Source: a virus. From it: 36,729 bases of DNA. A program made the translations under genes and the position numbers. The notes beneath the pieces are model-generated. The model saw only the letters and a list, made by a program, of their open reading frames with translations. It did no database searches and was not told where the DNA came from. The DNA lies in the IMG/VR virus record IMGVR_UViG_3300031660_000017, positions 1-36,729 of that record; one strand, 5' to 3'. Below, one piece after another: positions 1,218 through 25,224 of the stretch (position 1 is the stretch's first letter; every line of letters starts with the position of its first letter).

Positions 1218-1604
1218 TTAATCCTCCAGTTCAAAGTGCGGCATATCTTGCCACGACTTCCAAAGCCCACCCCACTTCAACTTGTACCCTAGTTGGGCCG
1301 AGGCTTGAAGCATTGCGCTAGCGGCTAGAGCTAGGTGGATTGTATCCCAACTGGCTTTGCCGTCAACGTAAGCGTACAGGTCAAGTGCCTTGCCTGTTTG
1401 GTGGTATGATTTGTTTGTACGTCCGTCAGCCTTAGAGACTCCTGATGCGAACAATTCGGCTTGATCTTCAGCGGTGCGCAGGCCACCAGTAGAAGGAATA
1501 CCGAAGTCAATATTGGATATAGATATTGCAAGGTCACTTATCTCTATTAAGCGAGGGTCTACACCTGCACGATTGTTTAATGAGTTCTGGCCTAATCTAA
1601 ACAT
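1218..1604 (-). CDS. Endolysin, M15 family L-alanyl-D-glutamate / D-Ala peptidase
   Basis: This 128-residue zinc peptidase has the usual length of single-domain M15 endolysins. The zinc motif HxxGxAxD appears as HQTGKALD (His68, Asp75). The C-terminal PHFEL (His123, Glu125) supplies the third ligand and catalytic base. It should cut the peptide part of peptidoglycan. There is no signal peptide, so export depends on a holin, and the holin-like gene follows directly. Its ATG overlaps the preceding stop as TAATG. Confidence 0.9.
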   Translation of the reverse strand: MFRLGQNSLNNRAGVDPRLIEISDLAISISNIDFGIPSTGGLRTAEDQAELFASGVSKADGRTNKSYHQTGKALDLYAYVDGKASWDTIHLALAASAMLQASAQLGYKLKWGGLWKSWQDMPHFELED

Positions 1605-1826: not shown

Positions 1827-2390
1827 TCAATTTGCTAACGGGTTATCTAAGGCCCGTTGTAGCTTTTTGTTTAACCGTGTTTCAAGATCGGTTAGTTTAC
1901 GTTCAACATCTTCCCGTATTGTATCAGACTTCTGCACATAATCCTTCTGTAGTTGATCACGCTTACTTTCAAACCTACCATCAGCAGTGTCTATAGTAGC
2001 CCTGACGTCACTCTCTATACCTGATATATCATCTTCTACCTTATCGATGATCTTCTCTTGGCGGTCAATGTCGTCACGTATGGACTGCTTTAAGTCCTTG
2101 ATGGTGACGTACTGCTTCTCTGTGTTCTCTTTAATCGAGGAGATTTCATCCTTTACTAAGGCAATGCCTCTGTCTATGACCGCGAACTTGTTCTCCATTA
2201 TAGCAATGCGCTTGTCGTAATCTGAGAGGTCTGGAGTAACGAACTCATTGATCCTAGCTTCCATACTAAGGTAGCGTTGATACGCCTCAAATCCACCATA
2301 CAGTCCACCTACGATAGTACCAATAAGTGGTACTATGAGTAGCAGCTTACTGCCACCTAACTTAACTCCACCGTACTCTATCTCTGCCAT
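1827..2390 (-). CDS. Membrane-anchored coiled-coil protein, spanin-like layout
   Basis: This 187-residue protein has an N-terminal membrane segment (about 13-32, KLLLIVPLIGTIVGGLYGGF) and a long charged helical region (about 40-185) with heptad-like Ile/Leu spacing. It would be anchored in the inner membrane with a long coiled coil in the periplasm. That is the layout of an inner-membrane spanin (Rz), although it is longer than most and no Rz1 gene overlaps it. A structural coiled-coil function cannot be excluded. Confidence 0.6.
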   Translation of the reverse strand: MAEIEYGGVKLGGSKLLLIVPLIGTIVGGLYGGFEAYQRYLSMEARINEFVTPDLSDYDKRIAIMENKFAVIDRGIALVKDEISSIKENTEKQYVTIKDLKQSIRDDIDRQEKIIDKVEDDISGIESDVRATIDTADGRFESKRDQLQKDYVQKSDTIREDVERKLTDLETRLNKKLQRALDNPLAN

Positions 2391-2391
2391 A

Positions 2392-2811
2392 CTATCCGTC
2401 CAACTGTAATCGTCTAAGTGCGTTTAGTTCAGTCTCTAGCTTCATGATCTCAAGACGCTTCTTGTGTAGTTCTAATAGGTACAACGTATTACAGTTGATC
2501 CTCTCCTCAGGTGCATTCAAAGGCATGATGATCCTAGCGTACACTCCAAGGTCTTTAGATTTAGGAGATGAATTAGATGAGTCAAATATACTAGTAGCAT
2601 TGTTAATGATACCGGTCATACCAAACTCTAGGTTGATCGTACCGCCTATAGCGTTAGAGCAATCCAGGTCACCTGCTTTAAACTTATCTGACTGATAGTT
2701 GTTACCACTGCTAGGTAGTTGCAGAGAAAGCGAATTACTCGCAAGTACAGTAGTGCTGAGCATCAGTAGTCCCAGAAAAACAGCATATGCCAGAAGTATG
2801 AGCTTACCCAT
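2392..2811 (-). CDS. Secreted hypothetical protein with C-terminal helix
   Basis: This 139-residue protein starts with a Sec signal peptide (about 1-24, cut after VLA). The mature part has two cysteines (about 50 and 107) that could pair in the periplasm. It ends in a Leu/Lys/Glu-rich helix (about 110-136) that could form a coiled coil. Its ATG overlaps the preceding stop (TAATG). It is the last of five consecutive secreted proteins. Function unknown. Confidence 0.65.
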   Translation of the reverse strand: MGKLILLAYAVFLGLLMLSTTVLASNSLSLQLPSSGNNYQSDKFKAGDLDCSNAIGGTINLEFGMTGIINNATSIFDSSNSSPKSKDLGVYARIIMPLNAPEERINCNTLYLLELHKKRLEIMKLETELNALRRLQLDG

Positions 2812-3185
2812 TACTTAACTCTCGAACATATCTTTGATGATACTGTAGTACCGTACTGTAGTTGTGACACGGAGCATATGTACTCAACAGAATCTAATGA
2901 CAGCTGACTTACATATACGTCAAACGATACTGTATCTAAGTACCTCATAGGGATCACCGTATATTGTGATACGAATGGGATAGGCTCCCACTCATCTGTA
3001 AATACCCCTATCTCATAGTATGAGACATCCTTTCTCTTGTTGAATATCTCCAACGTAGTGACGGATATACCCACCATAAACGATTGTTTAAAGGTAGGGT
3101 ATGTAGGTGTCATGTCATGTGAATACACAGGGGTACTGAGTGTAACCACTATGAGATAAAACAGTACTCTAATATTATTTAGCAA
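2811..3185 (-). CDS. Secreted beta-rich protein, periplasmic-chaperone-like
   Basis: I place the start at a TTG at 3185, because it gives a good signal peptide (MLNNIRVLFYLIVVTLS, cut after VYS) and 124 residues. The longer GTG frame from 3242 buries this signal and overlaps the upstream gene by 68 bases. The mature part alternates hydrophobic residues like an immunoglobulin-type beta sandwich and has two C-terminal cysteines (YICSV and KICSR). This resembles fimbrial chaperones in outline only. It overlaps the next gene upstream by 11 bases, so the two are probably translated together. Confidence 0.55.
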   Translation of the reverse strand: MLNNIRVLFYLIVVTLSTPVYSHDMTPTYPTFKQSFMVGISVTTLEIFNKRKDVSYYEIGVFTDEWEPIPFVSQYTVIPMRYLDTVSFDVYVSQLSLDSVEYICSVSQLQYGTTVSSKICSRVK

Positions 3186-3672
3186 TACACTCAGCCAATA
3201 CAAGTGCCGTATAGCTACCACCAGGGAATGACTTACTGCCACCGTACACTGCAGATGCTTCAGAAGAGAACCATGTAGATCCAGCGATAGTCAGGTCGTA
3301 CTGGGTAGTAGAACCGTATAGGATCTTACCTGTCTCATACGCAGTCATACCAGCATCAGTAGTTTTAGTAACTGTTGTAGAACCAGTCCATGTTACCGCA
3401 TCATTTAATGTAGGGCTTGAGATGAACGCAGTAGGAGTAGTTACCTTAGCTGTATACGAATCAGCCAGAGTTACGTCATATCGCACAATAGGTACAACAC
3501 CACCGTCAGCAGAAGCTGTACTTAGTTTACCGGGTAATGGGTTACCAAATACACCATTAGTGTCAGTTGTGATAAGACACCTAGTCTGAACATTACCCAC
3601 TATTGGGGTCTCTGTTGCATACGCTGGTGAGCAAGATGCAAGTGCTAGACTTACTATTAGTAACTTCTTCAT
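3175..3672 (-). CDS. Secreted beta-rich protein, spore-coat-U / fimbrial-subunit-like
   Basis: A 165-residue protein has a signal peptide and a Thr/Ser/Gly-rich beta mature part. Cys33 and Cys162 near the two ends could form one disulfide, as in small pilin-like or spore-coat-U-like domains. The signal is ambiguous. LASC at residues 11-14 fits a lipobox, which would make it a lipoprotein, while AYA then TE fits ordinary cleavage. A good SD (AAGGAA) lies before the ATG. The next gene is chaperone-like. Family assignment is an impression, not a proven match. Confidence 0.6.
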   Translation of the reverse strand: MKKLLIVSLALASCSPAYATETPIVGNVQTRCLITTDTNGVFGNPLPGKLSTASADGGVVPIVRYDVTLADSYTAKVTTPTAFISSPTLNDAVTWTGSTTVTKTTDAGMTAYETGKILYGSTTQYDLTIAGSTWFSSEASAVYGGSKSFPGGSYTALVLAECIAK

Positions 3673-3675
3673 GTG

Positions 3676-4536
3676 CTATTCCTTTGGTTCATACTGCATA
3701 CCCACCATTTTGGTGTGTAATATTTGCTGTGCCAGTCCTGCTCTAGCGCCTTTCTTGTTATCAGGCAGGTTACCTCCATCGAGAACAACTGTCTCTTTGT
3801 AGACACCACCTGCTAACTTCTTATCATAATATGGATTCATGTTACTGCTTCTAGTTAAAGCATACATTAATAGGTTTTGGGATATAACGTTAGCAGAGAG
3901 TACTGAATCATCCACACTGCTTAGTATCTTCTCTAATCTATCACTGTCTTCATCCTCGTCCTGCTCTTCATCTTCTTCCAGATCTGCCTTCTCTTCCAGC
4001 ACATCCGTAATATTCTTGTCGTCCATTGGGTCATAGACAGTATCGTCAATCTTACCCATCATACCTAACACTGCATCAGTGTAACCAGGACATGAAGGAT
4101 CTGACATAGGGGTTAAGCAATCGTTATTATACTTATAGCTATAAACTACATTAGCATCAACCACTGATCCAGTCCCTTCAACATCAATAGAACCATCACC
4201 CCATAACTCTATAGGTAGGTTATCTATGACGAAGCCCTTTGTAATAGGTATACCTCCCGGTAACCCACTCCAATCATCTGTCTCAGAGAAGATGTATCCT
4301 CCTCCTACCTTCTTGTTCCTAACATGGACTACCATGTCATCTTCTGTATTCTTTACAGGAGTGTATTGGTAGAACACACCATTGATTCTCATACCTCTTT
4401 GGTTACTAGGGCCTATACCGTTCATACCCCATGTATGGCCTGCTCCTGCCATGTTACCGCTAATCCCATACAGATACTCACTGTGAGCACTTGTAGCGTA
4501 GAGAGCTAGCAAGGCCACTACAGCGAGCTTCTTCAT
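3676..4536 (-). CDS. Large secreted protein with acidic coiled-coil segment
   Basis: This 286-residue protein has a signal peptide (about 1-19, cut after AHS). A Gly/Trp/Tyr-rich N-terminal domain (about 20-135) follows, then a short loop with two cysteines (NDCLTPMSDPSC, about 139-150). Next is a very acidic stretch (about 180-205, mostly Glu and Asp) and a helical C-terminus ending near residue 286. It is the largest of the secreted group. ATGA overlap with the preceding gene implies coupled translation. Function unknown; an exported envelope or virion-associated protein. Confidence 0.6.
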   Translation of the reverse strand: MKKLAVVALLALYATSAHSEYLYGISGNMAGAGHTWGMNGIGPSNQRGMRINGVFYQYTPVKNTEDDMVVHVRNKKVGGGYIFSETDDWSGLPGGIPITKGFVIDNLPIELWGDGSIDVEGTGSVVDANVVYSYKYNNDCLTPMSDPSCPGYTDAVLGMMGKIDDTVYDPMDDKNITDVLEEKADLEEDEEQDEDEDSDRLEKILSSVDDSVLSANVISQNLLMYALTRSSNMNPYYDKKLAGGVYKETVVLDGGNLPDNKKGARAGLAQQILHTKMVGMQYEPKE

Positions 4537-5060
4537 AAGAGTAGCAACAATCCTAGTAGAGATCCACCTAAGCCAAGAAGGAACCTTTTGGTACCATCCT
4601 CTTCCATTGCTTCAGGTTTAGGTACTGCACCTTCATCGTTCTCCCAAGCTATCTTAGCATCAGTACCTATAATACCGTTATAAGGGCAAGGAGTGCCTGC
4701 CATTATCATAGCATCAAAGACCCTAAGGTCTTGGCATAGGACTGATACTGCAGCTACCTTCATACCCATGTCGTACAGTGTCTTAGCATTCTTCAATCGT
4801 TCACAGTTAAGGTCACGAGTTGTAGTACCTGCTGAGATACCTAAGATCTGGGTTTGAACTGCACCTGCCACTCCGACTGTACATGAGTCAGAGTTACTAC
4901 CACCAAGGGACGGTGATATGGCAGAAGGAGGAGGCGACTTAAGTGTTGTAGTGACACTACCTGTCGTGTGGACTGTACTATTAGTAGTAGAGTCCGTCAC
5001 AATAGGTTCAGCCATAGCTAGTACAGGTAACAATAGGATAATCCATATAATCTTATTCAT
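4533..5060 (-). CDS. Secreted protein with C-terminal membrane segment
   Basis: A 175-residue protein has a signal peptide (about 1-18, cut after AMA), a Thr/Ser-rich linker (about 20-55), and a compact domain with four cysteines (SCTVG, NCER, LCQD, TPCPY). It ends in a hydrophobic tail (about 160-175, mostly Leu and Gly) that could anchor it in a membrane. The cysteine domain has a distinctive AGTPCPY motif that I believe recurs in marine phages, unverified. It is first of the secreted group; no clear SD is visible. Confidence 0.6.
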   Translation of the reverse strand: MNKIIWIILLLPVLAMAEPIVTDSTTNSTVHTTGSVTTTLKSPPPSAISPSLGGSNSDSCTVGVAGAVQTQILGISAGTTTRDLNCERLKNAKTLYDMGMKVAAVSVLCQDLRVFDAMIMAGTPCPYNGIIGTDAKIAWENDEGAVPKPEAMEEDGTKRFLLGLGGSLLGLLLLL

Positions 5061-5113: not shown

Positions 5114-5947
5114 CTAGATTTGTGTAACAGTGAATGAACTGGGATTATAGTACGTAGCTCCGCCAGCGCCTACGGTTCCAGAGGGGCCGTAATTTCCGTT
5201 TGGAGCAGCAGCAGCAGCAACACCTGAAGCTCCATAAGAACCTCCAGTTCCCCCACTGTGACTAGATCCACCGCCAGCGCCCCCAGCCGTCAGTGTTCCA
5301 TCACTGCCAGAGTAACCTGAAGAGTTAGAGCCATTTCCACCCCAACCATTATCTCCGTTAGGGGCACCGCCACCACCACCATTACCGCCTTTTCGATAGT
5401 AACCCCAACCATTGAAGTATGATACTCCACCAGTTGAACCACCACCACCACCACCACCACTTAAGATACCGTTGTTGTCTATCGTAACTGCGTGCTCTAC
5501 ATGTATAGCTTTACCGCCTGCTTCAGCAACCTTGCCAGTACCTTTTGCCCAGCTTGATGTAGAATTACCACCATGCCCACCTCGACCACCACGGCCTAAG
5601 ATCTTACCGTTATTCTGGATGGTGAGGCTCGCGGCCCAACCTGTTCCAGTTTTAAGGGCGTAGTTGGACACACTTGTAGCAACTAATACAGCCCCAGAAG
5701 GAATAACCACTAGTACATCTCCACCCTGAGCTATGCCCAAAGTGTCTAAATCTACATTTGTATGCGTAGCTACTGAAAATGTATAAACAGTTAAAGCTGA
5801 GGTTCCGTGGAAGTGAGATAGACTGATGGAACCACTTGATGGAACTGAGTCTGACCCATAGTACTCTGATATCGAGATTGGGTTACTGCCTCCGAACTCG
5901 GCTTGTATTTGAGATAGGCTTATAGCGCCTGAAGATGGTAAACCCAT
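5114..5947 (-). CDS. Glycine-rich tail adhesin (receptor-binding), copy 1
   Basis: This 277-residue protein has two short N-terminal repeats ending in YYG and HFHG (LPSSGAISLSQIQAEFGG type, about 1-47), a pattern common at the base of phage fibre proteins. A beta domain from about residue 52 follows, then a polyglycine domain (about 120-270) with Gly runs separated by variable loops, ending FTVTQI. Polyglycine tip proteins such as T4-like gp38 bind receptors through such loops. It is a paralogue of the gene at 10539 and follows the S74 fibre directly. Confidence 0.8.
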   Translation of the reverse strand: MGLPSSGAISLSQIQAEFGGSNPISISEYYGSDSVPSSGSISLSHFHGTSALTVYTFSVATHTNVDLDTLGIAQGGDVLVVIPSGAVLVATSVSNYALKTGTGWAASLTIQNNGKILGRGGRGGHGGNSTSSWAKGTGKVAEAGGKAIHVEHAVTIDNNGILSGGGGGGGSTGGVSYFNGWGYYRKGGNGGGGGAPNGDNGWGGNGSNSSGYSGSDGTLTAGGAGGGSSHSGGTGGSYGASGVAAAAAPNGNYGPSGTVGAGGATYYNPSSFTVTQI

Positions 5948-10538: not shown

Positions 10539-11369
10539 TTAAATTTGGGTTACTGTGAAATTGCTTGGGTTGTAGTAAGTCGCGCCTGCTGCACCTGCTG
10601 CACCCGAACTACCGTAATTTCCATTAGGCGGAGCTTCACCTGCTATACCAGCGGAACCTACAGCGCCACCATTACCAGCAATGGGAGAAGTTGTTCCACC
10701 ACCAATTCCTATAGCTGTCAGCGTAGCATCTGTGCCATAACGGCCAGTGCTGTTAGTTCCAGTTCCTCCGATACCTTTAGTACCGTAGGGTACACCGCCA
10801 CCACCACCGTTGCCGCCAACATAAGCGTTACTTAAGCCAGCATAGTAGGAAACGCCTCCTGTGCCACCACCCCCTGACCCACCGCCAGATAAGGTGCTGT
10901 TATTGTCGATAGTTACAGCCGCTTCTATATGTATAGCGACACCACCATCAGTACCTGTTTTACCTGAGAGTCTAGGGTATGAAGAGCTAGAAGCGCCACC
11001 ATGTCCACCACGGCCACCGCGGCCTAGGATCTTACCGTTGTTCTCAATGGTTAACTTGCCGCTATAGCCAACGCCAGTTTTTAGGGCGTATGTGCTAGTG
11101 GTTGAAGCTACTAATACCGCACCACTAGGGATAACAACGCGAACATTGTGATACTTATCAAGGCCAAGCGCGTCTAAATCAACGTCAGTATGTGTATCAA
11201 CTGAGAATGTATAAACAGACTCGTATTCATAAGTGGTCTGCCATGTTCCAGCAACTTTAGCGTATGCTTTTTTAACCTTAGTCCAAGCGCCTGACACTTT
11301 AACTGAGGGAATTGAGCTAACCCATGAGCCGCCGACTTTGACTTTAATACTCAAACCAAACGTCCCCAT
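10539..11369 (-). CDS. Glycine-rich tail adhesin (receptor-binding), copy 2
   Basis: I start at the ATG at 11369 (276 residues); a longer frame from 11390 adds seven residues and more overlap with the next gene. The N-terminus has three VKVxGxW-type repeats (about 8-45) that probably attach the protein to the tail. From about residue 57 it matches the gene at 5114: beta domain, GRGGRGGHGG, polyglycine loops, and an identical type of ending (ATYYNPSNFTVTQI). Two copies with different attachment ends suggest two receptor-binding tips. Confidence 0.8.
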   Translation of the reverse strand: MGTFGLSIKVKVGGSWVSSIPSVKVSGAWTKVKKAYAKVAGTWQTTYEYESVYTFSVDTHTDVDLDALGLDKYHNVRVVIPSGAVLVASTTSTYALKTGVGYSGKLTIENNGKILGRGGRGGHGGASSSSYPRLSGKTGTDGGVAIHIEAAVTIDNNSTLSGGGSGGGGTGGVSYYAGLSNAYVGGNGGGGGVPYGTKGIGGTGTNSTGRYGTDATLTAIGIGGGTTSPIAGNGGAVGSAGIAGEAPPNGNYGSSGAAGAAGATYYNPSNFTVTQI

Positions 11370-11643
11370 TACTGCCGCCCGTTGCGGCACTACTGCTAAT
11401 AGTAAAGTTTGGCTGTCCTAGATTATTAGCATCTAAATCACCGATCACATTCCAAGCGTTATTAGCCCCTGTGCGCTGCTTTAACTTACCTGAGCTAGTG
11501 TCTGCCCACCATTGGTACGAAAAGGTTGGGGTCGGTGCGGTTGACCCGCTATTCTGGCTCACAATAGCATCAAGCACGTTGTTTATGTCGGTGCGTACTG
11601 CTGCTCCTGACCCGTCTGCTATATCATAATCATGCTGTGACAT
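11344..11643 (-). CDS. Small tail fibre-module protein
   Basis: This 99-residue protein has the MSQHDYDIADGSGAAVRTDINNVLDAI start and a YQWWADTSSGKLKQRTGANNAWNVIG middle. That module is common at the N-terminus of phage fibre proteins, where it attaches to the tail. Here it stands alone, overlaps the adhesin gene by 26 bases, and follows the J-like gene (stop and start meet at 11643). It probably links J to the adhesin. Confidence 0.65.
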   Translation of the reverse strand: MSQHDYDIADGSGAAVRTDINNVLDAIVSQNSGSTAPTPTFSYQWWADTSSGKLKQRTGANNAWNVIGDLDANNLGQPNFTISSSAATGGSNGDVWFEY

Positions 11644-14306
11644 TATACTGCCTCTTTCCCGTAACCGACTGCCTGCCAGTTAATTGACCTGACAATTCCA
11701 GTATCGAGTGCATTAAAACACCGAACCGTGAATCCTGTTCGTAATTTGGAGGTTACCCTAATGTAATCCCCACTATTAGCGTCTTGCATTGTTACTCCAA
11801 TAACAGGTACAGCCTTAAAGCTGCTACCAAACACCACTGAGGTACCGCCTGATGAGAGTGATAGGTCGTTAGATTTCTCAACCCTATCTGGCATATCTAC
11901 AGAAACAGAAAGCTCAGTTATGCTTATATTATACGATGAATCTGCATTAGTAACCACTACTCTAAATTGGTACCCCCTTGCATGGTAATCGCCTACTAAA
12001 AATGGCACCCAATCTGACCAAGTTGGGCTTGATGATGGATTATCATAGGTTGACCTTAATTGTAAAACTATCACTATTGCATCACTTGACTCACCATCGA
12101 AGGTAGGCCAAATGTCTATATTGTTTGTTCTATTATCAATAAGATCAGTAACTTCGGCAACTGATGATTTCATATTTGCAGTCAATCGGCTAGTGTAAGA
12201 TGCTCCGAAATCAATTGAATTAGAGAATATATAACTACCAGAACCTGCAACTGTTAACCCTCCAGTTAATATAAGCACGCCATTATCTACAACCATATTT
12301 GTTTTTGTGCCAGGAAATGATGAGTGTTCAGTCAGTGTCTCTACCGCGTTAAAGTCTACAATGTTTGGCACTGTTGTAGTGGAGAACTTAGCATTTGTGC
12401 TAAACCTACCGCCCTCGTCAACTGCCTTAGCCATATAAGTTCCAGCAAGCAAAGGGAGAACTGTGTATGTTTGACTACCAGCTATTGCTTCTCCAATGTC
12501 TTGCCCATTAGACCATGCTGCGCCAGAGGTGAGGGGAGTGTGACGTATGCGAACATACCCACCATTAATAACATCCAAATCAACGACTCTAGCCCAAGAT
12601 ATATGACACTGCCCATCCAATGCTCTTATTGTGAAGTTTGACAGATCACTTGGTATCGCAGTTAGTCCAGATATGGTCTTATTATATTGGTAAGCCCAAG
12701 CAGACTTTATGGCCATTGAGTTAACAGATCTAACTCTAAAGTCATACCTGCCAGCAGCAATATCCTCCACTCTTGCGCTAAGTGCGCTAGTTTTAGTTAT
12801 GAACGTAAAGCCAGCTGATCCGTTAATCTTATACTCGGCCTCATAATCACTAACAAACGCATCATTTGGTGCCGTCCAATTGAATATAGCCCTTGTTTGA
12901 GTGCCTTTTGAGTTTACTGTCGCATATAGCTCTTCTGTTACACTAAACGGAGTAGGAGCCAAGACACTAAATGGGTCTGGGAGATTCGTATCAGGTATAT
13001 TATCTGCTTCAGTTTTAAGCGACCATGGGTAGATACTATCTTGGTGCTCGATCAGATCTACAGACACGGCTCCTTCTGGTGACAGACCCAAATTAACGAC
13101 ACGGAATGGCTTATTAGACCAATCAGGGGTGCTATGGGTAACTCCTACAACCTGACCAACAACAACATTAAGTGCCTCACTTGTAGCATTAAAGCTAACA
13201 ACTAGGCCATTACGAGACCTATTTAGGACTATCTCTGCAATGTCTAACGCAGTATATTTGCTTGTTATTGTAGGCAAGACTATCCTGCTCTCTAATACCG
13301 TACCACCATCTTCAGCTAAGTAAGTAGCCTCTAGTGCAGATCCTGAAAGTGGATACTGAACCTGATCCTCTTGCCAGTTAGCTAGAGGGTTGGTGTAGGT
13401 AGCTATAACCCTATTAAACTTGGTCTTCTTTGTTTCACTGGTCAAAGAGAAGTTATCAATTATATTGCTCTCATCGAAGGTGAATGTTGAAGATCCTTCA
13501 TCTTCTATAATTAAACCGTACTGACCATCCTGATAAGGCATAAGGCCTCGCATACCAGAAAGAAGTTCTTTTACGTTATCTAGTATTTTTACGTTAGTGT
13601 CTATAACCGCGTTGCATGAGAATATTGGCTGTGCGCTTCCACCACTGTATGGAGTTACAGATTCATCGCATTTAGCTGCTGCAGATGCCACCAATGTGTC
13701 ATTGATAAAGCTCGTTGGTAGGCCTTTGCCATACCTAGAGTTAGTCATGTAATCTCTCCAGCACCACGCTGGATTAGCACTGTACTCAGTAGTAGATCCA
13801 GTAAATATCTTCTTCCCTTGAACTACAGCATTTATAGTTGGCACTGATGAGAATGCGTCAGTGTCCCACTTAAGCCTAACAGCCAAATATGCAGTGCCAC
13901 GAAGCCTATGAGCAGATGTCCACCCTATATTAGCAGCCATAAATGTAGGGTCTGCGACTTGCGTATCAGTACCTAAATACTTGGTTACTGTCACAAGGCC
14001 ACTGAACTTGCTATCTGTGGACAGGTCATCATTAAGATAGATATCGCCTATACTGCTAATCTCTCCCTCGCACAGCACAAGTATGATGTATATATACTTA
14101 TTATCTTCCCCGCTATTAGCTATAAATACGCGGGTGCCACCTACTTTACGCTCTCCGTATATAACTGCTATGGAAGCTACGTTAGAGTCTTTGTTCGCCA
14201 TCAACCCATTAGCTTGTTCAGCAGCACGTTTCGCTGCCTTCGCCAACTCGTCTGCTATTACATAAGAAACCACCAAAGAAGCTACAAACCAAAAAATCAT
14301 AGGCAT
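11643..14306 (-). CDS. Tail tip / host specificity protein, lambda gpJ-like
   Basis: This 887-residue protein starts at the ATG at 14306, overlapping the preceding stop (TAATG) with a GGGG run eight bases upstream; an ATG five codons earlier (14321) is an alternative. A hydrophobic start (about 1-20) is followed by a region typical of J-like tail tips (IAVIYGERKVGGTRVFI, GEISSIGDIYLND). Fibronectin-like beta domains (about 450-640) and a variable C-terminal part follow. It forms the central tip spike that contacts the receptor. Downstream genes supply fibres. Confidence 0.85.
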   Translation of the reverse strand: MPMIFWFVASLVVSYVIADELAKAAKRAAEQANGLMANKDSNVASIAVIYGERKVGGTRVFIANSGEDNKYIYIILVLCEGEISSIGDIYLNDDLSTDSKFSGLVTVTKYLGTDTQVADPTFMAANIGWTSAHRLRGTAYLAVRLKWDTDAFSSVPTINAVVQGKKIFTGSTTEYSANPAWCWRDYMTNSRYGKGLPTSFINDTLVASAAAKCDESVTPYSGGSAQPIFSCNAVIDTNVKILDNVKELLSGMRGLMPYQDGQYGLIIEDEGSSTFTFDESNIIDNFSLTSETKKTKFNRVIATYTNPLANWQEDQVQYPLSGSALEATYLAEDGGTVLESRIVLPTITSKYTALDIAEIVLNRSRNGLVVSFNATSEALNVVVGQVVGVTHSTPDWSNKPFRVVNLGLSPEGAVSVDLIEHQDSIYPWSLKTEADNIPDTNLPDPFSVLAPTPFSVTEELYATVNSKGTQTRAIFNWTAPNDAFVSDYEAEYKINGSAGFTFITKTSALSARVEDIAAGRYDFRVRSVNSMAIKSAWAYQYNKTISGLTAIPSDLSNFTIRALDGQCHISWARVVDLDVINGGYVRIRHTPLTSGAAWSNGQDIGEAIAGSQTYTVLPLLAGTYMAKAVDEGGRFSTNAKFSTTTVPNIVDFNAVETLTEHSSFPGTKTNMVVDNGVLILTGGLTVAGSGSYIFSNSIDFGASYTSRLTANMKSSVAEVTDLIDNRTNNIDIWPTFDGESSDAIVIVLQLRSTYDNPSSSPTWSDWVPFLVGDYHARGYQFRVVVTNADSSYNISITELSVSVDMPDRVEKSNDLSLSSGGTSVVFGSSFKAVPVIGVTMQDANSGDYIRVTSKLRTGFTVRCFNALDTGIVRSINWQAVGYGKEAV

Positions 14307-14860
14307 TATGTACGGCCCCATTTAACGTCTTTAATTATCTCGCTGGCAAATTCCATACCTTTGTCCCCGCTAAATGCCGATTGTTGAGAGTTGTCGTTAG
14401 TCCTTCGCCCATTAACCCGTTCAAAGTCTGCCCAGTGTGACGCCACACTAATCCTTACCACACTATCTGATCCGCTATCGGCAATATTGAACCCACTTAT
14501 ACGCCCTTCGTACAATATGAACGGTTCGCCAATTACAGCGCCTGTAGTAGTCAGCAAGGCCCGTTTAATGGTTACCCTGCGATCAATATAGTTACCACTA
14601 AGAAGTATTGAAATATACGCTTGCTCTACGCCTGACAGGTCAATGTTAATTGATCCTACCTGCAAGTCAGTTGACTCACTAACATCCCCCATTGAGAGTA
14701 GGTAGCTGCTTGATACGTAAGTATGGGAACTATCCACTAATTCGTGGCGGTAGTCTGTTAAGTACATGGGCGTAGCAAAGTCTATGTCTACTAAGTGAGC
14801 CATATTAAAGGCGTCTTTAGCCAACTCAGTGACAACGTCTGCGTGAATACCGCGACTCAT
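14306..14860 (-). CDS. Minor tail tip protein, DUF2163-like
   Basis: A 184-residue protein fits the family of tail-tip hub components (DUF2163-like, equivalent in place to lambda gpL), with DIDFATPMYLTDY, a GDVSESTDLQVGSINIDLSG middle, and a GRISGFNI stretch. The region around residues 150-155 (NGRRTNDNSQQ) is characteristic of the family. Position between distal-tail-like protein and gpJ agrees. It overlaps its neighbours by one base each. Confidence in the exact family is moderate. Confidence 0.7.
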   Translation of the reverse strand: MSRGIHADVVTELAKDAFNMAHLVDIDFATPMYLTDYRHELVDSSHTYVSSSYLLSMGDVSESTDLQVGSINIDLSGVEQAYISILLSGNYIDRRVTIKRALLTTTGAVIGEPFILYEGRISGFNIADSGSDSVVRISVASHWADFERVNGRRTNDNSQQSAFSGDKGMEFASEIIKDVKWGRT

Positions 14861-15426
14861 TAGATAGCCTCTACGAAGTCTACTTCGTTACTGAACATCA
14901 TATCCTTACCCACGCTGTAAGATTGAACATCGTTAGACATGCGTACCGTAAACGGCACCGATCCGTATATTAACTCTTCTGCACCTACCGCGCTAACTAA
15001 CTCAGGCACAATGCTAACAGCACCAGCGCCAGATCTATCTGCAGTTAAAGCGTACACCTTGTCGTGTCCAGCGAACTTAATGAAGTCTCCTGCCTTGAGG
15101 ACTCCACTTAAGCCAGAAACCGTCACCGAAGATACGCCAATTGCCGCTGCAGTTGTGGTAACTGTGCCAGTAGCTGTTCCGTTAGTAGTGCTTAACTCAG
15201 GCAATATAATCGTGAAGACGCCATGGCGACCTCTTTTACTTGCTAAGAATGCCCACACAGGAGCAAATTCACTACGTGTTAGGGGTGCGTATGAGGCAGT
15301 GAACTTCCACTTCTGGCTACCTATCTTACGGCTCTGAATACGCCCACTGAGCGCCTCAGATACCAGAGTAGGGTCAACTGATTCAATACCGACAGCGGTA
15401 AATTTAGGGGTTGTTGGATACGTCAT
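14860..15426 (-). CDS. Distal tail / minor tail protein
   Basis: This 188-residue beta-rich protein is encoded between the tape measure and DUF2163-like genes, the place of the distal tail protein or lambda gpM. The N-terminal part (AVGIESVDPTLVSEALSGRIQSRKIGSQKW) has the beta pattern of tube-to-tip connectors. A Thr/Val-rich insertion (about 80-130) follows. No enzymatic motif. It starts where the tape measure gene ends (overlap at 15426). Confidence 0.65.
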   Translation of the reverse strand: MTYPTTPKFTAVGIESVDPTLVSEALSGRIQSRKIGSQKWKFTASYAPLTRSEFAPVWAFLASKRGRHGVFTIILPELSTTNGTATGTVTTTAAAIGVSSVTVSGLSGVLKAGDFIKFAGHDKVYALTADRSGAGAVSIVPELVSAVGAEELIYGSVPFTVRMSNDVQSYSVGKDMMFSNEVDFVEAI

Positions 15427-17507
15427 TAAGCGACTCCCGCTCTACCGCGATTGTTCATGGCTTGGTTGATTATTCCAACGATTGTACCACGCCTTGAGGC
15501 TAGTAGCTGATCGAATCCTTTGGTGTCGTTGGCCTGTATGTTGAAGGTAACATTAACTGCTCTAGCGTCACCGCCCTTCTCCATATCTATGATCTTCTCG
15601 TTAGGGTGAACCATGGCGATCTTGCCGCCCTTACCATCTAAGCCACCAGCACGTATGCCATTGCCAGTGAAACCACCGCCTTCAAATGAGGCTAGAGCAG
15701 TACCAGCAACCACACCAGCAGAAGCATAACCTACCGCCCTTACTGCAGAAGAAGATGCCATAAAACCTAAGAACCCGCCCAACGCCGCGTCATTTGCTGC
15801 CGCAGCTATCGCCGCTTTCTCTGTATTGATTAGGATGGATGATATTGCCAGCACCTTCTCTATAGCGAACATCGCCTTTTGAGCCGCCGTACCTTGTTCC
15901 ATGGAAGATGAAAGAGAGGCGAACACGCCTTTTGCAGACTGTACGGTCTCTTGGCCTATGGCCTTCTTTGCTTCCAGTAATGCTAGGTCTTTTGCATGCT
16001 CTTCCTCACGCCTACGGTCTTTCTCTTCAGACGCTGCAAGCTGTATTGCGCCTATGTCCTCTAAGTACTTAGACTCTATAGCTAACAAAGACTGCTTATA
16101 TGTCTCTTCAGTAAGAAGCCCAAGCTCGTTATCACTCTCTATTTTATCCCTAGCATCTTCAGCTAACTGACCTACCTGCTTCATTTCACTCATTGCAGCT
16201 ATTATTATTCGGTGCGCTGCATTCTCGGCAGATTCAGACTTACGGGCATGTGATTCAGCAGCCCTCTTGTCTTCTTCAATTAACCTATCTGCCTCTTCCA
16301 TTAACGCTGATGATGTTAGTGCTCTATCATTAAACGCCTGATCAGCTAACTTCTTATCCGACCTTAACTTCTCCTCAGCTTGCTTCTTAGCTTCCTTATC
16401 CAACCTCTGAGATTCTTTGAGCAATAGCTGGGCTGAATCTAGGCGCTGCTTATTCCTGGCGTCCTCAAGCTTATCCTGCTTCTTCTTCTCTGCTATTTTA
16501 GCTAATATGTCTTCTTGCGGTGCCTTTAGCGCCTTCTTGAATCCCTGATCCTTACCAGAGCTATCCCAAATAGCCTCTTTTAACTCACCAGCCTTCCTTA
16601 TAGCTAAGTCAGTTGCCATTAGAAGTTCTGGTATCTGATTTATATAGGCGTCAAATACAGTATTCCCTTTAATGGTAGAAAGCGCCTTAGCCATTTCGCT
16701 AAATTCATCAGTAGGAGTGGCATTTTTTATACTAGATAGGGTCTCAAGTAGTAGTACAGCCTCAGTCTCATTAATCTTAAACTTACCCATAAGATCACCG
16801 AGGGCATCGTCAAGATCCCTCAGATCACCAACACTTGCTCTTTCCCCATCAAAATTTAACAGTGACTCTCTAGCGCCTTTTACGCCTGTTTCTAGCCTAA
16901 CAAGAAGCTCCATTGCTTGAGTTACGTCACTACCCCAATCAATCATATCTCCAGCAGCAACTTCCAACGAGTCTCTTATGGCTTGGACAGAAGCTCTAAC
17001 AGCGATAGCTGCATTATTTACAGCACTAGCTACTTGTAATTCAGCAATACCTGATGCAGCCCTAGAAAGAGCAAGGTACTCCTCCGTGATGGTGAATACG
17101 TCACCCTTACCTGTTTTAAATACCTTATTAAGAGAATCTTGAGCGTCTTTTAGCTCCTCAAGGGCATCCTTAGAGTCGAATATCGCAGGTAAAAGCGCAG
17201 TACTAAGAGCAGCACCAACAGCAAGGAACGCGCCTATGATGGCTCCGTGTGGGCCGAAGAGTGATGCTATTTGAGATCCCTGCTGTCCGAAGATAAGCAT
17301 AGCGTTTTGCCCCATTTGGAGCTGCACTGCTATATCCTGAACTTGATGTCCTACTTGGCCGAAACCGCCACGCATAAAGCGAAGCTGTTTGGTAGTCCCA
17401 GACATTTCCTTCTGGGTTTTACGCATACTTGCGTTGACGGAATTAAAAGCGCGGGAGGTTTCATCCTTGGCGCTAATTCTAATTACTGTTTCTGTGGTGC
17501 TCGCCAT
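15426..17507 (-). CDS. Tape measure protein
   Basis: The start is the ATG at 17507, which overlaps the stop of the gpGT extension (TGATG); a TTG one codon earlier is not used. The protein has 693 residues: a helical start, hydrophobic segments near residues 95-115, a long Lys/Glu/Ala coiled-coil middle (about 340-480), a hydrophobic stretch (about 560-615), and a GGGFTG...GGKIAMVHPNEKIID ending typical of tape measures. At about 0.15 nm per residue it predicts a tail near 100 nm. It sets tail length and is ejected with DNA. Confidence 0.9.
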   Translation of the reverse strand: MASTTETVIRISAKDETSRAFNSVNASMRKTQKEMSGTTKQLRFMRGGFGQVGHQVQDIAVQLQMGQNAMLIFGQQGSQIASLFGPHGAIIGAFLAVGAALSTALLPAIFDSKDALEELKDAQDSLNKVFKTGKGDVFTITEEYLALSRAASGIAELQVASAVNNAAIAVRASVQAIRDSLEVAAGDMIDWGSDVTQAMELLVRLETGVKGARESLLNFDGERASVGDLRDLDDALGDLMGKFKINETEAVLLLETLSSIKNATPTDEFSEMAKALSTIKGNTVFDAYINQIPELLMATDLAIRKAGELKEAIWDSSGKDQGFKKALKAPQEDILAKIAEKKKQDKLEDARNKQRLDSAQLLLKESQRLDKEAKKQAEEKLRSDKKLADQAFNDRALTSSALMEEADRLIEEDKRAAESHARKSESAENAAHRIIIAAMSEMKQVGQLAEDARDKIESDNELGLLTEETYKQSLLAIESKYLEDIGAIQLAASEEKDRRREEEHAKDLALLEAKKAIGQETVQSAKGVFASLSSSMEQGTAAQKAMFAIEKVLAISSILINTEKAAIAAAANDAALGGFLGFMASSSAVRAVGYASAGVVAGTALASFEGGGFTGNGIRAGGLDGKGGKIAMVHPNEKIIDMEKGGDARAVNVTFNIQANDTKGFDQLLASRRGTIVGIINQAMNNRGRAGVA

Positions 17508-17997
17508 CAAGTTTTCCCCTGTTGCCGTTCACCCTTTATTCTTAGATACGTAAACCAGTGATTGAATTCAGTCACTGTCATATCTAATATGGTCGATAGT
17601 GGTTGACCAAGGTGTTCGGCTAAATTGTACATTAAGTATAACTCAGTCGGGGTGCCTTGGTCATCTATCAGTTTTTTTCGCGGTCGGCCTCGGCCTTATC
17701 GGGTATAGCTAACACGAAGTTGGCTATACGTGAAACAAGATCTGGATTAACCTTGGTGCGAAGCAGGGTTTTTGCTGCAATATCAAATACTGGCTCCCCT
17801 TCTTTATCGGTAACACCGAAAATAACAGAGTAACATAAGTAATCTGTAGTATCGCCATCCGCACGACCAAGCCACTTGGCCTTGTCATCCAAAGTGAGAT
17901 TCTTCGCGTAAAGCGTAGTATCCCACTCTGGCATTTCTAATGTACGTATTACATGGCTACTAAAGTCCGCAACAGCTACATCAATTAGCTTGATCAT
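17507..17997 (-). CDS. Tail assembly chaperone gpGT, made by -1 frameshift
   Basis: The gpG frame ends GAA AAA AAC TGA at 17668. The bases A AAA AAC (17677-17671) are a canonical -1 slip heptamer in the correct phase. A -1 shift continues for 54 codons from CTG at 17671 (LIDDQGTPTELYLMYNLAEH...) to TGA at 17507, giving a 163-residue fusion. The extension contains a DMTVTEFNHWFTYL pattern like the T domain of lambda gpGT. Its stop overlaps the tape measure ATG. Efficiency cannot be seen from sequence. Confidence 0.85.
17668..17997 (-). CDS. Tail assembly chaperone gpG
   Basis: This 109-residue acidic protein is the zero-frame product. Position between tail tube and tape measure, size, and slippery end identify it as gpG. 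It should bind the tape measure and help tail tube assembly, with the longer gpGT made in smaller amount. Starts with ATG right after the tail tube stop. The last five residues are DREKN. Confidence 0.8.
   Translation of the reverse strand: MIKLIDVAVADFSSHVIRTLEMPEWDTTLYAKNLTLDDKAKWLGRADGDTTDYLCYSVIFGVTDKEGEPVFDIAAKTLLRTKVNPDLVSRIANFVLAIPDKAEADREKN
17671..17677 (-). promoter_or_regulatory. -1 ribosomal frameshift slip site A AAA AAC
   Basis: Seven A bases then C on the minus strand, in the phase xxA AAA AAC, two codons before the gpG stop. This heptamer slips well in bacteria. I did not identify a downstream pseudoknot. Confidence 0.85.
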
Positions 17998-23394: not shown

Positions 23395-25224
23395 TCACCG
23401 CCATGAATTAAGGAATCCACCCTTGGTCTTTGGCACAAACGGTTTACGTGGGGCCGAATACTCTTCAGGTACTTTCTCAACATCAGACTCAACCGCTTCT
23501 TTTTCATGACGATCAGCCATAGTGTTGACATTTATATTCATAATAGCATATGCAGCGAGTGCGTACACCATGCAATCCAAAGCTTCGTTCCTTGGACGTA
23601 TCTTTTCAAACACTCTTTTAGAGTATCCACGGTGATATCGGGTGACAATCTTCTCTGCAGTGAGCTGCCTGAAGTATTCATTGTCTAAGGTATCATTGAA
23701 GTGAATATATCCTGGCCCCTCTTCAGCGATGCGCAACCGAGAGAACAACAAGTCCTTAACCGTGTTTACGCCAATAGGGAATAGTGGGCACCGTACAGTG
23801 TTATTCTTAGACGGTTTACCCGCTATCGCCCTGCCCTCACCACCAATACCCTTGATAGCGAACACTCTTCGCCCATAGTTCTTCTTACAGTAAGAATACA
23901 CCGAGTTAGTGAAGTGACCGCCTGAGTCAACGCAAGTGGCTCTAATTCCCATATCCCTGCCAGAAGCAGTCTCATACCTAGCAAACAGGAATGAATCAAG
24001 AGAAGTCCATAACTGAGGAGTCGAGGGGTCGCCATACAGTGTCTTATGGTCAATCACCCATGATTCGTCATCACGGCCCCAGCCAATCACTGACAGTTCA
24101 AGTCGGTTATCCTGTACGTCAACGCCACAGGTAAGGAACACCACATCGTCTGGCACGTACTTCATCTCTTCACGGCGCTCATACAGCAGATAATCATCTA
24201 CGGTCTCGCCCTGATCTTCCCAAGTCTCGCCTAAGTATGTATTAGTCCACACTCGCAATTGCTCAGGATTCTTCTTAACCAGCAGAAAGTCCCTAACTCC
24301 ATCAGGCAATGGTGTCCACGGTGAGTTAAGTGCTGATATGGCAAATCCAGCTACACCCTTCATCTCCTTAGTAGCATGCCATTCGCCGTTACGTATCCCC
24401 CACACTCTGTCAGCGTCAGTCCATAAGACAGCGCATTCCTCACATTCGTACTTAGCGGTGTCAGGGTCATCGTCAATCCACTTTACGTTCTTCCACTTCA
24501 TCACCTGTAGATGCTCGCAGTGCTTGCACGGTATGTAATACTTACGCTGGTCTGAGTTTTCGTATGCGAACTCGATTCGACTGTTGCCTTTGTTGGTCGG
24601 CGTAGACACCATCACGATCTTACGGTTCCAGAAGGTAGCCGCACGTTTCCTTGCTAGCTGAATAGGGTCACCCTCTGATCCAGCACTAGCGGGATAGCGA
24701 TCCACTTCATCGCAGAGTACTAATCGTATCGGACGACTCGCCAAACCTGAAGGTGAGTTAGCGCCCACTATCGATACAGAGCCACCAGGGAATAGCTTGT
24801 GCAGAGTTGTGTTGCCAGAATCACGCGAACGAGCTTCGTTAACCTTAGCAGTTAGACAGGGCGTAGATTTAATGAGGCCGTTGGCTACACGATCCTTAGA
24901 GAATGACTGTGCCATATCCAGCGTAGGCTGCAGAACAAGAATAGGACTCGGATCGTGATCCATGTGGAAGCCGATGATATTTAAGATAGCCTCGGTCTTG
25001 CCTAACTGAGCTGCCGCCATCACTACTACTTCAGGTATGGTCGGGTCAGAGCAAGCATCCATTATGCCGCGCTGGTATTCCGCTCTCGATGTGTACCACC
25101 TGCCAGGCTCGGCACTGGTTTGAGAGTCAAGGCGTCTTTCTTGATCGGCCCACTGACTTACGCTTAATTTTGGCGGTGGCTTTAGCACTTTCAGCGTGTT
25201 CAGCAACATCTGTTGTGGGGTCAT
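23395..25224 (-). CDS. Terminase large subunit, lambda gpA type
   Basis: This 609-residue protein has the gpA-type order: N-terminal SVSQWADQERRL, Walker A-like AAQLGKTE (about 72-79), Walker B LVLCDEVDRYP (about 168-178), two CxxC pairs (CKHC and CEEC, a zinc ribbon near 232-265), and a nuclease domain opening with TCGVDVQDNRLEL. It cuts and packages DNA with the small subunit. gpA-family enzymes normally make cohesive ends, so cos packaging is expected. It overlaps the small-subunit gene by 98 bases. Confidence 0.93.
   Translation of the reverse strand: MTPQQMLLNTLKVLKPPPKLSVSQWADQERRLDSQTSAEPGRWYTSRAEYQRGIMDACSDPTIPEVVVMAAAQLGKTEAILNIIGFHMDHDPSPILVLQPTLDMAQSFSKDRVANGLIKSTPCLTAKVNEARSRDSGNTTLHKLFPGGSVSIVGANSPSGLASRPIRLVLCDEVDRYPASAGSEGDPIQLARKRAATFWNRKIVMVSTPTNKGNSRIEFAYENSDQRKYYIPCKHCEHLQVMKWKNVKWIDDDPDTAKYECEECAVLWTDADRVWGIRNGEWHATKEMKGVAGFAISALNSPWTPLPDGVRDFLLVKKNPEQLRVWTNTYLGETWEDQGETVDDYLLYERREEMKYVPDDVVFLTCGVDVQDNRLELSVIGWGRDDESWVIDHKTLYGDPSTPQLWTSLDSFLFARYETASGRDMGIRATCVDSGGHFTNSVYSYCKKNYGRRVFAIKGIGGEGRAIAGKPSKNNTVRCPLFPIGVNTVKDLLFSRLRIAEEGPGYIHFNDTLDNEYFRQLTAEKIVTRYHRGYSKRVFEKIRPRNEALDCMVYALAAYAIMNINVNTMADRHEKEAVESDVEKVPEEYSAPRKPFVPKTKGGFLNSWR

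Follow-up and report, generated by a model that had tools for sequence, protein, structure and literature searches.

A Conserved Six-Gene Cassette of Exported Proteins With Predicted Chaperone-Like and Pilin-Like Folds in Lytic, Mostly Marine Phages

Introduction

Chaperone-usher systems of the FGL type (Caf1M-Caf1A-Caf1, Dra/Afa) pair a small Ig-fold chaperone with one major pilin-like subunit, the chaperone having two cysteines in the last two strands of its N-terminal domain and the subunit a donor-strand-like N-terminus. The disulfide of these Caf1M-type chaperones joins the two strands concerned (F1-G1), and known pilus chaperones consist of two Ig domains in an L-shaped arrangement. The phage cassette described here, six genes in the order A-B-F-E-D-C, resembles these systems in setting a small Ig-fold protein (E) beside one pilin-like protein (F), in the two cysteines that the model of E places in its last two strands, and in the donor-strand-like N-terminus of F. 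It differs in that its chaperone-like protein E has a single domain, in that no usher or adhesin accompanies it, in the extra genes A, B, C, and D, and in its occurrence in lytic phages only. The best fold matches of E (FimC, SfaE) and of F (PapG pilin domain, CfaB, FimG) also belong with type 1, P, and CFA/I pili. From these the cassette is set apart by the absence of a significant sequence-profile link after signal-peptide removal and by the disulfide of F, which would join the first and last strands, whereas that of pilins joins the first two.

Two types of phage system are also comparable. Gene C shares with the Rz/Rz1 two-component spanins an N-terminal membrane segment, a coiled coil, and, in siphophages, a location near endolysin genes, but the cassette has no outer-membrane lipoprotein partner. 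Known superinfection exclusion proteins are usually single genes. Among these, T5 Llp is a small periplasmic phage lipoprotein that blocks its receptor from the periplasmic side (PMC9586334). T5 Llp, T4 Sp and Imm, and P22 SieA are, like the cassette, phage-encoded, exported, and envelope-acting (for the cassette, by analogy), but they are one-gene inhibitors whereas the cassette is a conserved six-gene set.

The initial annotation of this DNA held that no known lysis or tail system uses such a set of proteins, and searches of protein families, phages, and papers agree with it. A literature search, in which subscription papers were thinly covered, returned no earlier description of the cassette, and the phiKp24 structure paper makes no mention of F-E-D-type proteins.

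Results and Discussion

Composition of the Cassette

The window, meaning the whole stretch of DNA analyzed, is a virus contig of 36,729 bases from a lambda-like siphophage. It has genes for a terminase large subunit (23395–25224), a portal and a major head protein, a tape measure (15426–17510), a J-like tail tip (11643–14321), and tail fibers that extend down to position 5114. Two same-type Gp38-like glycine-rich adhesin or tail-fiber proteins (10539–11390 and 5114–5947) occur together in this one phage. The cassette lies on the minus strand and is composed of five genes for secreted proteins (A, B, F, E, and D; 2392–5060) followed by gene C (1827–2390). Downstream on the same strand are genes for a small membrane protein (1604–1825), an M15-type endolysin (1218–1604), and a holin-like membrane protein (774–1217).

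The locus had been annotated as a cluster of five consecutive genes, all beginning with export signals. All five open reading frames were confirmed, with neighbors adjoining or overlapping, and the cluster had to be extended by gene C, which had been missed. The export signals were borne out across homologs, with signal-peptide-like starts in 188/189 A, 188/199 B, 198/198 F, 203/204 E, and 196/203 D proteins against 273/1733 of the other open reading frames of the same loci; the calls rest on a custom heuristic instead of SignalP, and family members were given more candidate start codons than the background. Invariant cysteines number four in A and two each in B, F, E, and D, with none in C, and even counts are expected of disulfide-bonded proteins outside the cytoplasm. 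Values of dN/dS against relatives are mostly 0.02–0.2 for all six genes, indicating purifying selection. Promoter and terminator scans stayed near chance level, and searches of Pfam, PHROGs, and PDB sequences gave no function for the cassette families.

Gene Order and Carriers

A search for the same gene order in relatives had been proposed at the outset, and the exact order A-B-F-E-D-C was found in 164 of 223 loci, these 164 encoding 109 distinct B proteins. In nearly all the other loci the block is cut by a contig end. Neighboring genes typically overlap or abut, with the D-C junction the loosest. Given this fixed order and the low dN/dS, the cassette is not a product of chance. Profile queries with F and E matched at least 588 and at least 569 viral contigs, respectively. 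The loci were collected with B, E, or F as bait, so that mutual co-occurrence is partly ascertained; against this concern stands the recovery of one and the same block with all three baits, as does the later search with D, which arrived at E and F independently.

The carriers are lytic, mostly marine viruses of bacteria. They include siphophages such as that of the window, podophages with a T7-type portal (L055, L070; L-numbers are labels of the viral loci and contigs compared), and contractile-tailed phages (L108, L139, L204, L205, L215). The exported proteins could be virion components that join the progeny, as tail-fiber or tip decorations, in the periplasm or at lysis, given that the window has them after tail-fiber genes, and T5-like Vibrio phages after large genes that probably encode tail proteins. 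This we consider very unlikely. Judging by Sec signals and paired cysteines the proteins leave the cytoplasm, yet tailed virions are not put together outside it, and the same cassette accompanies three tail types and lies far from tail genes in several phages.

When 84,980 cellular species genomes were scanned once, using one pattern derived from the marine E, the sole match was a phage-like contig of 7.6 kb in a Rhodobacteraceae bin, and this contig has a major capsid-like gene. The result suggests that the cassette serves lytic growth. The chaperone- and pilin-like folds would also suit a surface appendage for lysogenic conversion taken from a bacterial fimbrial operon. That origin is most improbable and is already largely refuted by the near absence of the cassette from cellular genomes, prophages included, and by the lack of an usher gene.

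Chaperone-Like Protein E and Pilin-Like Protein F

Genes E and F overlap and had been read as an Ig-like periplasmic chaperone and a small disulfide pilin or spore-coat-U-like domain. Gene E (2811–3185, minus strand) encodes 124 aa including the signal peptide. It has no ATG and probably starts with TTG at 3185, giving an 11-nt overlap with the end of F. The AlphaFold2 (AF2) model (pLDDT 90.9, pTM 0.77, five models in agreement) shows a single Ig domain, for which PDB matches at ranks 1–12 were all periplasmic pilus chaperones (SfaE, Caf1M, FimC, DraB), with E-values of 3.9e-4 to 1.2e-3 and TM-scores of 0.52–0.62, scaled by query length with the signal peptide included. Cys104 and Cys120 are invariant in 23/23 sequences and both lie in the last two strands of the model. 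The predicted structure thus supports a likeness of E to a pilus-chaperone N-terminal domain, and its two cysteines would correspond in position to those of the Caf1M type. In a viral structure library, proteins of Klebsiella phage Eowyn and Erwinia phage pEp_SNUABM_01 ranked third and ninth against E, their lengths being equal to those of the E-position proteins found in these phages by synteny.

E nevertheless departs from known chaperones in having one Ig domain only instead of two. The PapD_N family (PF00345) was found in none of six records at E ≤ 10 and in none of the members of alignment A1, and hhalign profiles of E and Escherichia coli chaperones with signal peptides removed gave a weak link (10%, E = 0.003; reversed control 0.1%). 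The Vibrio phage E proteins end in K[LV]RLYWP, which aligns with SRIKLYY of FimC and has no clear equivalent in the marine E. The conserved basic anchor residues of pilus chaperones are, in FimC, Arg8 and Lys112.

Gene F (3175–3672, minus strand) encodes a 165-aa putative pilin-like subunit with its second invariant cysteine at the C-terminus. In its AF2 model (pLDDT 78.8, two of five models confident) the best PDB match was the PapGII pilin domain (E = 8e-3, prob 0.99), followed at lower ranks by CfaB, FimG, CS17, and CsuA/B. The mature N-terminus carries a donor-strand-like motif, I-x-G-x-V-x3-C, whose general form (hydrophobic-x-[GS]-x-[VI]-x(3,4)-Cys) occurs in 193/203 F proteins against 2/273 other secreted open reading frames and in 11/17 pilins of E. 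coli K-12, a motif framed after seeing both the F and pilin families and counted over F proteins that are related to one another. A pilin-like fold with a donor-strand-like N-terminus is therefore a supported prediction for F. Profile comparison of F with E. coli pilins (hhalign) gave 63–88% at first and under 2% without signal peptides and with reversed controls, so no sequence-level link between F and pilins is claimed. Of the two readings first given to F, the pilin-like one is favored. Spore coat U was not supported, with CsuA/B at rank 43 (E = 0.11) and no Pfam match in 20 F members, and from its model F looks more like a classical or CFA-type pilin. For E, the Ig-like chaperone reading agrees with both the fold comparison and the conserved motifs, and these same two lines support E and F as a putative chaperone-subunit pair. 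Unrelated folds or an unconserved gene order would have spoken against the first annotation, and neither was seen.

The usher family (PF00577) was detected in 0/39 phage records and contigs, many of which are fragments, with a positive E. coli control; the host could supply an usher. With none found, there is no known route to the surface. It is conceivable that E and F are instead periplasmic beta-sandwich binders that form no polymer and that inhibit or sequester a host envelope factor (a protease, stress sensor, or defense protein) or protect phage envelope proteins. Ig folds are common as binders, and the missing usher, one-domain E, and weak F-pilin profile link all fit such a role. We nonetheless judge it rather unlikely, because the top twelve matches of E all come from one chaperone family rather than a mixture of Ig proteins, and because of the donor-strand-like motif of F and the pairing of F with E across distant phages.

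Genes A, B, D, and C

The remaining secreted products had been described as a protein with a four-cysteine domain and a C-terminal anchor, a 286-residue protein with an acidic coiled coil, and a protein with a C-terminal helix, and these features were all found again, in A, B, and D, respectively. Gene A (4533–5060, minus strand; 175 aa) encodes a signal peptide, a Ser/Thr-rich linker, the domain with four cysteines (invariant in 22 sequences), and a hydrophobic C-terminal anchor. It matches phrog_20531 (1.3e-12) and has relatives of 32–58% identity in pelagi- and roseophages. Gene D (2392–2811, minus strand; 139 aa) encodes a signal peptide, a beta hairpin-like region, and a C-terminal amphipathic helix; it has two invariant cysteines, and 20/20 members match phrog_37374. 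Gene C (1827–2390, minus strand; 187 aa), the last gene of the cassette, encodes an N-terminal membrane segment and a coiled coil, with a C-terminal LQRALDNPLAD conserved in the alignment. It follows D in 164 loci and has a homolog in pelagiphage HTVC115P (E = 6e-48).

Gene B (3676–4536, minus strand; 286 aa) encodes a signal peptide, a beta-rich domain with two invariant cysteines, an acidic helical stretch, and a C-terminal LH..MV..QY motif conserved in the alignment. Searches recovered B at 73 IMG/VR loci with 36–100% identity. A relationship of B to the acidic secreted proteins beside A in pelagiphages was considered and set aside for lack of a profile link. One such protein beside A, gp53 of HTVC115P (L075, 7476–8876), ends in HNELVDMQYR, almost the C-terminal motif of B; the likeness is confined to this ELVDMQY end, and the rest could not be aligned. 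Possibly the B family evolves quickly but keeps a constant C-terminal tag. B is broken into three pieces in L068 and L070, where the rest of the cassette is intact, which suggests frameshifts or errors in sequencing.

Two Modules in Isolated Phages

Single-sequence tblastn searches of phage isolates with B, E, F, and D gave no matches, and it was a divergent D query that opened the link to Vibrio, Klebsiella, and Erwinia phages. The order is F-E-D in Vibrio phages PS14A.1, pVp-1 (T5-like), and vB_VhaS-tm, and E-D-F in Vibrio phages 2.275.O, 1.081.O, and D479, Klebsiella phages Eowyn, FBKp24, and Miami, and Erwinia phage pEp_SNUABM_01. The same F and E occur in Vibrio phages D81 and 1.205.O, where either D or E lacks a gene annotation of its own. 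The annotations of all these isolate genes read hypothetical or coiled-coil protein. D is present in about 200 isolate records and the Vibrio F in 179.

All twelve F-E-D-type isolate records tested have D and lack A, whereas A is present, in several cases along with C, and D absent in all eight phages tested from the pelagi-, roseo-, and related groups. This distribution indicates that the marine cassette combines A-B...C with F-E-D, and the fact that F, E, and D adjoin one another as a separate group in phage isolates of Vibrio, Klebsiella, and Erwinia marks them as a unit. Profiles without signal peptides link the marine F to the Vibrio F (94%, E = 1e-7), and the marine E has a moderate profile link to the E of T4-like phages (54%); with the E of enterobacterial phages it is linked only by position, cysteine pair, and fold. 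The families concerned, PHROGs 37374 (D), 25895 (Vibrio F), 25455 (Vibrio E), and 20531 (A), have members in isolated phages and no assigned function, and as far as our searches show they had not previously been linked together, to a cassette, or to the fold of pilus chaperones.

A gene for a short lipoprotein overlaps D or comes directly after it in T5-like and related Vibrio phages (L228, 5053–5211; L231, 5275–5460; L235, 4068–4469, in the C-terminal part), the product having CTxNxxIDTDYAxQ after the lipobox. It is a possible outer-membrane partner of F-E-D.

Proposed Role

On fold evidence the cassette would work like the chaperone-subunit half of a chaperone-usher system, yet several features that define such a system, namely an usher, a PapD_N match, and a two-domain chaperone, were not found in it. 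We tentatively favor, as a real possibility, chaperone-assisted envelope assembly in the infected Gram-negative cell, changing its surface or receptor access. This reading is built on the fixed order, purifying selection, paired cysteines, the folds of E and F with the associated motif, and the F-E-D unit, and it is weakened by the one-domain E, the moderate F model, the weak or missing profile links to chaperones and pilins, the absence of an usher, the single-gene nature of most known exclusion proteins, and the siphophage position, which fits lysis equally well. E would bind nascent F in the periplasm and donate a strand completing its open Ig fold, after which F would be passed on to another F or to D. 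D may oligomerize through its C-terminal helix, and A, B, and C could tie the complex to the membranes. Less certain is that the product, by altering the surface or the access to receptors, would stop phage from adsorbing to the infected cell and to its debris, in effect superinfection exclusion by a built structure and not a single inhibitor. Such an assembly, for which T5 Llp is a precedent, would most likely act against re-infection.

A bolder form, which we consider quite unlikely, is a virus-only polymer machine that dispenses with the usher. D, with its membrane-type beta hairpin and helix, would oligomerize in the outer membrane and replace the usher, E would feed it F, and A-B-C would couple the device to the inner membrane. 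Late in infection the host would thereby be coated by a lytic phage with the phage's own fibers or a capsule-like polymer.

The cassette would appear to give the virus a hitherto undescribed means of rebuilding its host's surface. Its six-gene order persists among distantly related phages, with at least hundreds of marine viral contigs showing it, and F-E-D is present in about 200 isolate records, yet all of the genes carry the label "hypothetical". Should E and F prove to be a chaperone-subunit pair, lytic viruses would be altering the envelope of a dying cell by donor-strand-type assembly without an usher. This would be a new class of host remodeling and would allow a large part of marine viral dark matter to be read in terms that experiments can test. 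As F-E-D occurs in culturable Vibrio phages, the idea can be tested at once.

Genomic Context and Relation to Lysis

The main rival to envelope assembly is a lysis device, in which the exported proteins and the membrane coiled-coil protein C would form a complex across the envelope and, beside the holin and endolysin, weaken or open the outer membrane when infection ends. In siphophages the cassette lies between tail-fiber and holin/endolysin genes; that of the window is directly upstream of the membrane protein, endolysin, and holin-like genes, F-E-D of Vibrio phages pVp-1 and 1.205.O is flanked by tail genes on one side and an M15 endolysin on the other, and a lysozyme gene precedes A in L035. 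The layout of C, moreover, is spanin-like. Other contexts differ. The cassette is on the strand opposite to flanking replication or metabolic genes in the contractile-tailed L108, L139, and L205, and the genes of the T4-like Vibrio phage D479 are near rIIA/rIIB, indicating that it is not tied to lysis genes. In the Klebsiella and Erwinia phages F-E-D is found among thymidine kinase or tRNA genes (near thymidine kinase in Eowyn). Such varied contexts favor an independent envelope function and disfavor one bound up with lysis or with the assembly of virions. Further points against lysis are the missing lipoprotein, an o-spanin candidate of the window's own, and contig L048, where an Rz-like gene (phrog_739, 4.9e-9) with a lipoprotein gene after it exists in addition to the cassette. 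It was on account of this Rz-like gene that a spanin set was rejected as the main reading of the cassette. Taken together, a lysis device seems to us somewhat improbable.

The o-spanin candidate is a +1-frame open reading frame of 68 aa (1331–1537, minus strand) with lipobox LLLVAC, located inside the endolysin gene. Of the endolysin sequences tested, 8/8 keep this frame open together with its lipobox and start codon, against at most 0.2% of synonymous-codon randomizations, and 4-fold sites of the endolysin differ less inside the overlap (39% vs. 54%). From sequence, it is likely to be an overlapping gene for an o-spanin-like lipoprotein.

A small EF-hand protein, which contains membrane segments and may be a holin-like partner that responds to calcium, is encoded at the loci of 53/164 full cassettes, in 41 cases within 1.5 kb (for example L036, 9342–9659; L042, 10600–10911; L048, 7010–7375; L081, 3870–4226; and L083, near 6755). 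It also follows C in roseophage CRP-207.
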